A program made the position numbers and the translations under genes. Positions 2,786 to 6,157 of a DNA stretch of 32,634 nucleotides are shown here, one piece after another. Under the pieces are notes generated by a model. It was not told the origin of the DNA, did no database searches, and saw only the letters and a list, made by a program, of their open reading frames with translations. The stretch is taken from contig JAKQII010000304.1 of NCBI GenBank assembly GCA_029557535.1, positions 1-32,634 of the forward strand. The letters run 5' to 3'. How positions within the stretch are numbered: position 1 is the first letter of the stretch; every line of letters begins with the position of its first letter. The DNA is from Acidobacteriota bacterium (GTDB lineage: Bacteria; Acidobacteriota; Blastocatellia; Pyrinomonadales; Pyrinomonadaceae).

Positions 2786-4054
2786 TCAATTCGAGGGAAT
2801 AATCTTGCCGCGGCATTCGCCGAACCCGATGCGTCGGAAGCCATCGCGCTCGCAAAATCCCTTCATGATGATCTCATCGCCGTCTTCCAGAAACCTCCGA
2901 AGCTCGCCCGTCGGCAGTTCGAGCGGCTCGGATCCCCGCCATGTCAATTCCAAGAGGCATCCGCGTTCGTTCTTCTCGCGGCCCGAGACCGTTCCGGTCG
3001 CGAGCAGGTCGCCGCGGCGGAGATTGCAGCCGTTCGAGGCGTGATGGGTCAGCATCTGGCCGATCGTCCAATAGAGATCCTTCATGTTCGAGCGCGAAAG
3101 CAAGAACGGATCGATCATTTCCGCGCGCATCATTTCGGTTTGCAAGTAGACTTCGAGGTTGACGTCGAACCCGCCGCGTTTGCGGTTGGCATCGCCGTCC
3201 AGGTGATCAAGAGGCTGCGGATCGTCGGGATCGCGCTCGAAAGCGGGCACGCGGAACGGTTCCAGAGCTTCGAGCGTGACGACGAACGGTGAGACCGTGG
3301 TCGCGAAATTCTTCGCGAGAAACGGGCCCAGCGGCTGATACTCCCAGGCCTGTATGTCGCGGGCGGACCAGTCGTTGACGAGTGAAAGACCAAGAATATG
3401 ATTCTCAGATTCTTCGAGCGGAACCGGAGTACCTAACTCATTCCCGCGGCTCACGTAGAACCCGACCTCAATCTCGTAGTCAAGATTGCGACAGGGAATG
3501 AAAACGGGCGGCTTTTCGGCATCCGAACGGTTTTGCCCGTTTGGGCGACGAATTTCAGTACCGGAGATGACGATCGAAGACGCGCGCCCGTGATATCCGA
3601 TCGGAATATACTTGTAGTTCGGAAGCAGCGGATTGTCAGGCCGGAACATCGCCCCGACGTTCGTCGCGTGAAAGATCGAGCAATAGAAATCGGTGTAGTC
3701 GCGGATCTCGAACGGAAGCGCGAATTTCGCGGATGCGAGCGGAGTCAGAAAATGATCGCGTATCAGGTTTCTTGTTGACTCTTTCGCACTTTCCGACAGC
3801 GCTTCAATGATCGCCGTTCGTGCCTTGTGGCTGGCCGCCAGATCTAGATCGATGCGCTCATAACCGTCGGCACCGAACGAGTTGTAAAACGGTTCGAAGT
3901 CGAGGATGAAGTCGCCGACGGCAATTCCGATCTGAACGTCATTGCCTTTGTAAAAATGACAAACCGGAAGGTTTTGAAGCGGAAACTCGGTATCGGGTCG
4001 GTTCGCCGACTCGATCCAGCTTCGAAGATTCGAATCGTGGGTTTCGTTGATCAT
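2786..4054 (-). CDS. fahA: Fumarylacetoacetase
   Basis: This 422-residue protein has the usual length for the family. It hydrolyses fumarylacetoacetate to fumarate and acetoacetate, the last step of tyrosine/homogentisate degradation (EC 3.7.1.2). An N-terminal SH3-like domain (about 1-118) precedes the catalytic fold. Residues matching the metal and catalytic site of mouse FAH can be read: D122 in YTDFY, H129 in FHATNVG, E194 and E196 in YEIEVGFY, and D228 in VNDWSARDIQ. The stretches PIGYHGRASS and EYQPLGPFLAKNF are also family hallmarks. No homogentisate dioxygenase or maleylacetoacetate isomerase lies next to it, so the rest of the pathway must be elsewhere. The start is the first ATG of the frame. 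Confidence 0.95.
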   Translation of the reverse strand: MINETHDSNLRSWIESANRPDTEFPLQNLPVCHFYKGNDVQIGIAVGDFILDFEPFYNSFGADGYERIDLDLAASHKARTAIIEALSESAKESTRNLIRDHFLTPLASAKFALPFEIRDYTDFYCSIFHATNVGAMFRPDNPLLPNYKYIPIGYHGRASSIVISGTEIRRPNGQNRSDAEKPPVFIPCRNLDYEIEVGFYVSRGNELGTPVPLEESENHILGLSLVNDWSARDIQAWEYQPLGPFLAKNFATTVSPFVVTLEALEPFRVPAFERDPDDPQPLDHLDGDANRKRGGFDVNLEVYLQTEMMRAEMIDPFLLSRSNMKDLYWTIGQMLTHHASNGCNLRRGDLLATGTVSGREKNERGCLLELTWRGSEPLELPTGELRRFLEDGDEIIMKGFCERDGFRRIGFGECRGKIIPSN

Positions 4055-4169
4055 ATTAAATGCGGCAGATCTTGTTTTTCGACTCGAGAAATTCGAGTCT
4101 GAGACTGCCGATGCATGTCAAAAGTTTACCACGAACGGATTGGCAAGTCGGGATTCCGAACTCCGTTGG

Positions 4170-4247
4170 TCACGCGCATCGAAACGGACATTTCTTGCAC
4201 GCCTTGCCCTTTTTGTATTTCTTGCAGCACTTTTTCTTTACTTTCAT
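4170..4247 (-). CDS. Mini-protein of 25 residues, Cys/Lys-rich (hypothetical)
   Basis: A short minus-strand ORF encodes 25 residues: ten Lys, three Arg/Tyr/Phe positions and five Cys (C7, C8, C17, C20, C24). It starts MKVKKKCCKKYKKGKACKKC. An in-frame TGA sits two codons upstream, so the ATG at 4247 is the only possible start. The CC...CxxC pattern suggests metal or redox chemistry, and the strong positive charge suggests nucleic acid or membrane contact. I recall similar CC-K-Y-K-K-G-K-x-C-K-x-C peptides in Bacteroidota and other Gram-negative genomes, but cannot verify this here. No strong Shine-Dalgarno is visible. A candidate promoter lies about 220 bases upstream. It could be a chance ORF, but its composition differs sharply from random coding at this GC content. 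Confidence 0.55.
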   Translation of the reverse strand: MKVKKKCCKKYKKGKACKKCPFRCA

Positions 4248-4279
4248 ATTTCACGACCGATGCCGTTCTGAACGCGTGA

Positions 4280-4300
4280 CCGGAACTGTCGATGTTCCGG
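4280..4300. repeat. Perfect 7-bp inverted repeat (CCGGAAC / GTTCCGG)
   Basis: CCGGAAC and GTTCCGG are separated by 7 bases. The element lies 33 bases upstream of the 25-residue ORF, inside its presumed leader. It could be an RNA hairpin or a protein-binding site; the sequence alone does not decide. Confidence 0.45.
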
Positions 4301-4441
4301 CCGCACATGAGCACATTCAAGACTGATCCCTACCCGTCCGCCCGCGCGGTTTGCCGGGAACTTACGACGGCAGAGTCGCGACGTCATTCAAGAATGCTAT
4401 TTCAATTAACGCAAAGTCTCCGCGCCCCGGTACTGATATGC

Positions 4442-4460
4442 ACCGACAATGAATGTCGGT
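4442..4460. promoter_or_regulatory. Operator-like inverted repeat (ACCGACA / TGTCGGT)
   Basis: Two perfect 7-base arms are separated by 5 bases. It lies six bases past the -10-like box of the minus-strand promoter candidate, where a repressor would cover the start of transcription. The regulator is unknown. Confidence 0.4.
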
Positions 4461-4466
4461 TTCAAT

Positions 4467-4496
4467 AAGGTAGTAAATTGAACTGCGATTTGTCAA
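4467..4496 (-). promoter_or_regulatory. Candidate sigma-70-type promoter toward the 25-residue ORF
   Basis: Read on the minus strand, a perfect TTGACA (4496-4491) is followed by an 18-base spacer and TACCTT (4472-4467), a weak -10 match. It points toward the mini-gene and, beyond it, fumarylacetoacetase. Confidence 0.35.
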
Positions 4497-4589
4497 TGAG
4501 GACTTGGGGAGCGGCGCGGAAGTAACAGAAGCACGGTTACGGATCCCGGACGGTGATTCAGTCTTCCCGGGCTCCGTTTGATCGAATCG

Positions 4590-5855
4590 TCAATCCTGAT
4601 CGGCATCTGCACCGAATGTCACCAGCAAAGCGACGATCTCGTCACTGGCGGCGAAGTCGATAGCGGTCTCACCGTCGTTGTCCCGAAGACGCGGATCGGC
4701 GCCTGCGAGCAGCAGCGCGCGAACGTTCTCGAGATTCTCCGCGAAGGCCGCTTCCATCAGCGCGGTTCGTCCGTCAGCGTTTTTCGCGTTTATGTCGTTG
4801 GTGTTTCTGATAAGCACCTTGAGGACCTTCTTATCGACGTCCCCCGCAACAGCGATCAGCGCCGTTTCTTTCTCTTCCCCGACCAAGTCCGCGTCGGCGC
4901 CATATTTGAACAATAGTTCTACAAGTTCAACCGACGAATCTTCATCCAACGACATCAGCGGAGTTTGTTGCGCGTCGTCACGGGCGTTGACCTCGGCACC
5001 CATTTCGAGAAGAAGCCGGACGATTTCCGTACTTCCGTTCTCGACCGCGAGAAAGAGCGGTGTCCCGCGGTTGCCGTTCTTATCCGTTTCATTGACGTTC
5101 GCGCCCTCGCCGATAAGCCGTTTGACGGTCGCAACGTCGTTCTTCGAGACGGCCCGAAACAGCGGATTCTTAAACTCGGTGATCGCGACCATCCCCATTA
5201 TCACGAGTTCGACTGAAGCCGGCAGTTCGACGTTGAGGGTCATGCGATCAGTCGAAAGCGTGAACTCGGCAGTCTTCGCTTTGAACATGTTTGCCGAGGC
5301 TTCCAATCTATAGTCGCCGGGTTCTAGCCCCGAAATCTCGTACGCTCCTTCCGCGTTCGCCGTGTAGGCCGCGCTCCTGCCGGTCTTGGAATTGACAAGC
5401 GTGACAGTCGCGTTTGGGATCGCGCCGCCGGATTCATCGGTGACGATTCCGGCGAGGATCCCCTTTCCGCCTGCGCGATTCGTGCGGTCATTCTTTGAGA
5501 CGGTTTCGACCTGATCGCGACCGGGTCGAAGAACCTGTGAATACGACACGGCCGTCAACGTCAGCGACGCGCCGATGATACCGGCGGCGATCCGCGAACG
5601 ACGCGAGATCTGATGCAGTTTCTGAGCAAAAATCGGAGGACCGCCGATCGACCCGGATTCGTACCGGACGCAGACGCGCCCGTCGGATTTCCGGATCAAA
5701 CGCATCGCCTCCCGTCGAGTCATTTCCGATATGTTGTTCACACTCTGGGCGCAGTGACTGCAAAAGCGTACCTGATCGTTCCCGGTCATCTGGTTCCAGT
5801 CCTCGTGGCAGGGCTCGCCCACCAATAAATGTTTTCCGTTGTTCATCTTCTTCAT
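4590..5855 (-). CDS. Membrane-anchored ankyrin-repeat protein with Cys-rich N-terminal domain
   Basis: The protein has 421 residues. The ATG at 5855 is preceded by AGGAGA at good spacing, so I prefer it to the longer frame that opens at 5909. The N-terminal domain (about 10-65) contains PCHEDW and FCSHC, with cysteines C16, C32, C35 and C62 that could form a metal site. I recognise this N-terminus from membrane proteins of Bacteroidota and Acidobacteriota, with no known function. A single transmembrane segment follows (about 88-106), then a carboxypeptidase-regulatory-like beta domain (about 132-215), then about five ankyrin repeats (225-421) with motifs such as GTPLFLAVENG and GRTALMEAAF. 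The topology suggests the Cys domain in the cytoplasm and the ankyrin part in the periplasm, probably as a protein-binding scaffold. The partner is unknown. Confidence 0.85.
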   Translation of the reverse strand: MKKMNNGKHLLVGEPCHEDWNQMTGNDQVRFCSHCAQSVNNISEMTRREAMRLIRKSDGRVCVRYESGSIGGPPIFAQKLHQISRRSRIAAGIIGASLTLTAVSYSQVLRPGRDQVETVSKNDRTNRAGGKGILAGIVTDESGGAIPNATVTLVNSKTGRSAAYTANAEGAYEISGLEPGDYRLEASANMFKAKTAEFTLSTDRMTLNVELPASVELVIMGMVAITEFKNPLFRAVSKNDVATVKRLIGEGANVNETDKNGNRGTPLFLAVENGSTEIVRLLLEMGAEVNARDDAQQTPLMSLDEDSSVELVELLFKYGADADLVGEEKETALIAVAGDVDKKVLKVLIRNTNDINAKNADGRTALMEAAFAENLENVRALLLAGADPRLRDNDGETAIDFAASDEIVALLVTFGADADQD

Positions 5856-6157
5856 ACCTTCTCCTGAACGCAGTTCGGCCTCCGTCCTTGCGCCTGCAAG
5901 AATCTTCAATGGAAACGAAATTGGTCGAATTTATCGACGCGCGGCACCAACTCGCGCCAAAGACTAACCAGCTACAATCCCCTTGATGCGCGACGATTTC
6001 CGATTGGTTGCAGGTCCGACCGGATTTTCTTTGCGGCAAACGAAAGAATTCGTTTTGGAATCGGATTTTGCTAGACTGTATGAGCTCTCCGATTATGAGA
6101 TTTTTGAACCGCGGCACGGTCCCGCGCATCGGTTCGCATGTCAAAAGTTGAAGACAA
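5856..6157. other. Intergenic region between divergent genes
   Basis: About 300 bases separate the divergent ankyrin gene and the Omp85 gene, so both promoters should lie here. Apart from the AGGAGA ribosome site of the ankyrin gene I see no convincing promoter boxes, repeats or small ORFs. Confidence 0.4.

Follow-up and report, generated by a model that had tools for sequence, protein, structure and literature searches.

Bfd, the bacterioferritin-associated ferredoxin, is a small [2Fe-2S] protein which mobilises iron from bacterioferritin. It is approximately 64 residues long, has a cysteine pattern that differs from the one considered here, and serves the haem-containing bacterioferritin; to our knowledge, the release of iron from non-haem bacterial ferritins is largely unresolved. 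FeoC, an approximately 80-residue winged helix, is a small cysteine-containing protein encoded with FeoAB. FhuF binds a [2Fe-2S] cluster via a C-terminal CC-x10-C-x2-C motif (PMC8068687). In E. coli, the protein totals 262 residues, with a long siderophore-reductase part ahead of that motif.

Here, we describe a protein of 25 residues that stands alone, unlike the FhuF C-terminus, and that is encoded in a 32,634-nucleotide stretch of acidobacterial DNA (the window). Its proposed role would be analogous to that of Bfd, in that iron would be released from a storage protein, but the partner to which the gene family is linked scores as a non-haem ferritin. No Bfd model was among the Pfam and NCBIfam matches of 35 family members, nor was a FeoC model among the matches to these libraries.

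The 25-residue gene and its surroundings

The original prediction placed a Cys/Lys-rich ORF at 4170-4247 and put a promoter candidate with an operator-like repeat upstream of it. The coordinates proved exact, and the strand, which had been left unstated, is minus. A plus-strand reading of 4170-4247 gives SRASKRTFLARL..., which differs from the peptide described, and was rejected. The features are as follows:

4170..4247, minus strand: coding sequence of the 25-residue Cys/Lys-rich mini-protein MKVKKKCCKKYKKGKACKKCPFRCA, with ATG at 4247 and the stop codon TGA at 4172-4170
4186..4229, minus strand: conserved core CC-x2-Y-x5-C-K-x-C-P, a candidate FhuF_C-like metal or [2Fe-2S] site (metal binding putative)
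4442..4460, strand not assigned: inverted repeat ACCGACA-N5-TGTCGGT, the operator-like repeat of the original prediction, of unproven function

The protein MKVKKKCCKKYKKGKACKKCPFRCA contains the predicted five Cys (C7, C8, C17, C20, and C24) in 25 residues, together with one Arg and 11 Lys, one Lys more than had been counted. The core residues in this copy are C7, C8, Y11, C17, K18, C20, and P21. An in-frame stop lies two codons 5' of ATG 4247; therefore, no other start is possible, as had been claimed. Only one ATG ORF of 18-40 residues with at least five Cys and at least eight Lys occurs in the window, and none occurred in 60 Markov shuffles.

Both neighbours are on the minus strand. Upstream, 342 nt away, is the gene for an ankyrin/CarboxypepD protein (4590-5909), and downstream, 115 nt away, is one for a fumarylacetoacetate-hydrolase-like protein (2786-4054); the window copy adjoins these two instead of iron genes. 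The 4590-5909 protein combines a carboxypeptidase-regulatory-like domain with ankyrin repeats and has an N-terminal stretch with Cys and His (EPCHEDWNQMTGNDQVRFCSHCAQSVNNIS).

The regulatory elements fared less well than the ORF. A scan of 4000-4650 returned 0 sigma-70-like promoter sites, leaving the promoter candidate unsupported, and no strong Shine-Dalgarno sequence is visible ahead of ATG 4247 in the window. The predicted repeat does exist. It is located approximately 195 nt 5' of the start codon and does not stand out, given that a search of the 551 nt surrounding the mini-gene gave six inverted repeats; an operator role is unsupported. A scan for intrinsic terminators near the mini-gene found none. 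A perfect inverted repeat, GACTCGA-N5-TCGAGTC, is located at window positions 4081-4099, between the mini-gene and the fumarylacetoacetase-like gene, but lacks the subsequent T run of an intrinsic terminator.

A widespread family under purifying selection

We searched with the pattern CC-x2-Y-x2-G-x2-C-x2-CP alongside a control pattern. Copies were found in the window's own genome, in a same-genus genome (L003), and in a same-family genome (L002), while the control was silent; the L003 and L002 proteins are MSKKKCCKKYKKGKACKKCPLAK and MSKKKKCCKKYKKGKACKKCPLFK. Across the 19-codon core, the three pairwise comparisons of these acidobacterial copies contain 30 nucleotide differences, 28 of them at third codon positions, and only 0-1 amino-acid changes per pair. 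Replacements remain fewer than expected once the pattern-fixed codons are excluded (P = 0.003, 0.0003, and 0.002 for the three pairs). Third codon positions also dominate the variation across 113 loci, to which the search patterns contribute partly. The mini-gene family is thus under purifying selection. The original prediction had proposed looking for synonymous-biased substitutions, and had named a lack of homologues or of coding bias as grounds for abandoning it. Neither was seen, as homologues exist and their changes are silent-biased, also outside the pattern-fixed codons. The window ORF is a genuine protein-coding gene that annotation would normally overlook.

A profile built from the three copies led to further acidobacterial members. 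One scan of 84,980 species genomes gave at least 119 matching stretches, with at least approximately 107 family members among the matches listed. Including six acidobacterial loci from the earlier search, 113 loci carry the motif in a Lys/Arg-rich core; L105 and L128 look marginal and were excluded from the Pfam neighbour scans. The named hosts among the matches listed are mostly Bacteroidota, including Pedobacter, Sphingobacterium, Spirosoma, Salegentibacter, Tenacibaculum, and Saprospiraceae. Others are Acidobacteriota, Desulfobulbus and other deltaproteobacterial MAGs, a Spirochaetales MAG, and the Chromatiaceae Allochromatium, Thiocystis, Thiohalocapsa, and Rhabdochromatium.

The family core is CC-x2-Y-x5/6-C-K-x-C-P. 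In 35 diverse members, C7, C8, C17, K18, C20, and P21 are invariant (35/35), several of them being required by the pattern, and Y11 is conserved in more than 90%. Conservation of C7, C8, C17, and C20, another check that had been suggested, therefore holds at positions that are partly pattern-required. Most members are approximately 23-60 residues long, and the close acidobacterial relatives have 23-25. Many have Lys-rich tails. In many of the longer Bacteroidota members (for example, L031, L043, L065, L080, L042, and L079), at least one additional Cys precedes the core, as in ECVFKKCC and CSSSCASNC...KCC. The copies in three same-genus acidobacterial genomes (L168, L169, and L170; 3.7 Mb, two contigs) read ...RKRKDKCCKKFKKCGKHCKGCPRL with no nearby upstream ATG, and perhaps use a non-ATG start.

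Profile (HMM) searches found the family in 11/347 Acidobacteriota, 9/296 Bacteroidota, and 0/274 genomes of the class of the Chromatiaceae; these are lower bounds and give no prevalence figure because known carriers were missed (G435 holds L017, and G426 holds L056). Exact patterns in Bacteroidota gave 6/178, of which one (L185) resembles chance, and 1/178. The Cys motif is missing from two weak HMM matches, L012 and L013, which we discarded as chance matches of Lys-rich sequence.

No Pfam or NCBIfam model covers the family at its cut-off, a sequence search of the PDB gave no relative with a solved structure, and a DNA search in plasmids gave no match to the mini-gene. A tblastn search of plasmids with two peptides also had no match, although its low-complexity filter may mask Lys-rich queries. 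A literature search outside subscription journals and preprints found no paper with the motif. The suggestion of a widespread unannotated family in other Gram-negative phyla is supported, given that several phyla carry members and no curated model exists. This family of tiny proteins is widespread and apparently undescribed; curated libraries miss it, large as it is, because most of its members have only some 23-60 residues.

FhuF-like motif and iron-gene neighbourhoods

The original prediction gave no function; the resemblance to FhuF_C and the link to iron come from the present analysis. Alone, the window protein had no match in the Pfam scan and a weak NCBIfam match to TIGR03950 (E = 0.49), which falls at the C-terminus of the model. 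When 35 members were compared with 18,950 NCBIfam models, 30 matched TIGR03950, one matched TIGR03951, and nothing else was matched; both are models of FhuF-type siderophore reductases. The best individual E-value for TIGR03950 was 0.013, and the best Pfam match of the 35 was to FhuF_C (PF11575) at E = 0.087. The curated cut-off of PF11575 or TIGR03950 was reached by no member, with scores far below it.

As a control, all residues except Cys were shuffled in the 35 members, and 0/35 of these sequences matched either FhuF model. Aligning the family profile with FhuF C-termini in hhalign gave E = 2.3e-4 and a probability of 45%, compared with E = 0.076 and 0.7% for the Cys-preserving shuffles. 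Since the shuffles lose the match, the similarity resides not only in the Cys spacing but also at the Tyr, Pro, and basic positions, and at the level of profiles it is specific to FhuF C-termini.

FhuF C-termini from E. coli and plasmids (RRTCCQRYRLPDVQQCGDCTLK, RQRRVCCLRYLIPTLPYCGTCPLDRD, and similar) and the window relative (KKKCCKKYKKGKACKKCPLFK) share a residue order: basic residues, CC, two residues, usually Tyr, and then C-x2-C, after which Pro and a hydrophobic residue come in most cases. The order CC ... C-x2-C is present in the 35 aligned members and at the 113 loci, where it is partly required by the patterns, and an iron context is common to FhuF and the family. The two differ in spacing, with CC-x8-C at 70 loci and CC-x9-C at 43 against CC-x10-C in FhuF, in the loop, which has a conserved Pro in FhuF, and in composition, the mini-protein being Lys-rich. 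With no member above the cut-off and a spacing one or two residues shorter, we regard this as resemblance and not as FhuF membership. None of 15 genomes carrying the mini-gene yielded a TIGR03950 protein, and a PF11575 search in relatives rose no higher than sub-threshold noise; FhuF is therefore not evident in the relatives.

Other Cys-rich models did not account for the family. Zinc-ribbon, rubredoxin, and metallothionein models had no match in the Pfam and NCBIfam scans of the 35 members at E up to 10. NF041603 (Cys_rich_47, PSPA7_2676 family Cys-rich small protein) is likewise a curated family of small Cys-rich proteins, and it was matched by no real family member and by one shuffled control only (E = 0.063).

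To survey the neighbours, we grouped the nearest ORFs flanking the 113 loci on either side, with no labels assigned beforehand, and ferritin formed the largest cluster (16 loci). Among immediate upstream neighbours on the same strand, Pfam Ferritin was the commonest family (13/56), followed by TonB-dependent receptor barrels (5/56). The gap from the ferritin stop to the mini-gene start was mostly 7-106 nt, and 238 nt in one case. At three further loci, ferritin lies two genes downstream of the mini-gene. The Bfd-like trait of a gene beside an iron-storage protein is therefore found at 13 loci, with three more two genes off, the window copy not among them. If a genome of several thousand genes has one or two for ferritin, we roughly estimate that approximately 0.03 of the 56 neighbours would be ferritin by chance. 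The adjacency count includes related genomes that are not independent, but separate lineages remain: the linked ferritins form four groups (Chromatiaceae, one Saprospiraceae, Cytophagales, and Pedobacter) with only 21-50% identity between groups. One ferritin tested per group, four in total, scored best as a non-haem ferritin and not as bacterioferritin.

Uptake genes recur as well. In Marinoscillum (L080), the mini-gene lies downstream of FeoA-FeoB, in a position reminiscent of FeoC, and DUF6686 follows it. The same-genus acidobacterial copy (L003) neighbours a TonB receptor with HemS/HutX proteins, the same-family copy (L002) a TonB receptor, ChaN, and a DUF6686-like protein, and a same-class copy (L010) a TonB receptor and Fur. 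The L010 mini-gene precedes a gene for a Cys-rich CWC-domain protein (PF14375), and Fur is close by (coordinates 1157-1405 and 26-580). In eight Flavobacteriia, a [2Fe-2S] ferredoxin and a reductase-like gene are found upstream of the mini-gene, and a possible reading is that the three form an electron chain. The loci with this arrangement are L018, L019, L024, L071, L086, L089, L112, and L124, in Christiangramia/Salegentibacter/Salinimicrobium and relatives. At many other loci, the neighbours are unrelated (histone deacetylase-like, formyltransferase, CoA-transferase-like, and acyl-CoA-dehydrogenase-like genes). Overall, linkage of the mini-gene family to iron genes recurs.

A second small protein, DUF6686 (PF20391) or similar, also recurs beside the mini-gene. 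It has 68-120 residues (70-120 for DUF6686 itself), some copies with a CxxC pair, and is a neighbour and not a homologue; its companion may be just the mini-gene, or ferritin or FeoAB may be present too. The Cytophagales order is mini-gene, DUF6686-like gene, ferritin; in Pedobacter, it is a small gene that clusters with these neighbours, ferritin, mini-gene, and the small Pedobacter protein has no Pfam match. Its examples, DUF6686 or similar, are:

L002, 1564-1773
L011, 1629-1868
L081, 3260-3466
L050, 5503-5853 and 3694-4056
L080, 1720-2073

A literature search outside subscription journals and preprints found no paper with DUF6686, and it may be a second unstudied component of iron handling.

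Proposed function and alternative explanations

Two independent lines point to a function: relatives in distant bacteria lie beside iron-storage and iron-uptake genes, and the Cys pattern is of the FhuF type. On this basis, these are possibly very small Fe-S proteins that help to move iron. We tentatively favour, at a little under even confidence, a stand-alone FhuF_C-like [2Fe-2S] mini-protein that is a redox or iron-handling partner of non-haem ferritin and of imported iron. The four conserved Cys (CC...C-x2-C) would hold a [2Fe-2S] cluster as in the FhuF C-terminal motif or, failing a cluster, a single iron. The basic mini-protein would then pass on electrons or iron at the step that frees ferric iron stored in non-haem ferritin or just brought in as ferric chelates or haem, helping to reduce that iron or to receive it. 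We infer that the mini-protein binds iron or a cluster, and it would presumably bind its partners and serve them as a reductase or accessory. The window copy would presumably do likewise, though its own neighbours are not iron genes.

The main rival is a chaperone or buffer for iron or another metal, in which CC and CxxC would bind mononuclear Fe(II) or Zn(II) in a rubredoxin- or zinc-knuckle-like manner, with no electron transfer, and the Lys-rich surface would dock to ferritin, Feo, or a receptor. The same iron neighbourhoods suit it, as do the four invariant Cys of a protein whose size leaves room for little more, the variable additional Cys ahead of the core in many members, and the capacity of CC/CxxC motifs to bind Zn or other soft metals. 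We nonetheless consider it somewhat unlikely: outside the Cys, the sequence bears a specific resemblance to the [2Fe-2S] FhuF C-terminus that shuffles lack, and the models of zinc-ribbon, rubredoxin, and metallothionein proteins were silent.

Less probable again is a basic regulatory or structural peptide, binding for example nucleic acid or the ferritin surface, with the Cys forming a Zn knuckle, which would control translation or assembly of the neighbouring iron genes. The very high Lys content, extended by the tails of many members, and the absence of catalytic residues other than Cys and Tyr are in keeping with such a peptide, but the specific similarity to FhuF_C is not. The neighbours also vary between ferritin, TonB receptor, and FeoAB, and thus shared iron chemistry fits better than control of one transcript.

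That the protein is a toxic or antimicrobial peptide destined for secretion, as its composition alone (small, cationic, and Cys-rich) might suggest, is very improbable, and this reading was rejected on conservation and context. The window copy has no apparent signal or leader sequence, and among the neighbours it is ferritin, Feo, and TonB receptors that recur, whereas genes for export or immunity do not; selection is strongly purifying instead of diversifying. Least credible is the reading that the ORF arose by chance and yields no protein. The plain intergenic position and the lack of a strong Shine-Dalgarno sequence might speak for it, but conservation and context refute it at the family level: the protein is conserved between three acidobacterial genomes whose DNA differences are silent-biased, third positions dominate the variation over 113 loci, and the motif is kept across phyla.

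Returning to the [2Fe-2S] partner that we favour, its wider form is that [2Fe-2S] proteins of approximately 25 residues are a class of general redox partners for iron release from non-haem ferritins and for imported ferric iron in many bacteria, which we regard as doubtful. A conserved protein of this small size, whose gene closely follows that of a non-haem ferritin in separate phyla and which has the Cys motif of a ferric reductase, would be a directly testable candidate for the release of iron. If the proposal is true, a Bfd-like role would be filled for ferritins without haem, and few natural iron-sulphur proteins would be smaller than those of the family; at 25 residues, such a protein would offer an unusually small and easily synthesised natural Fe-S system.
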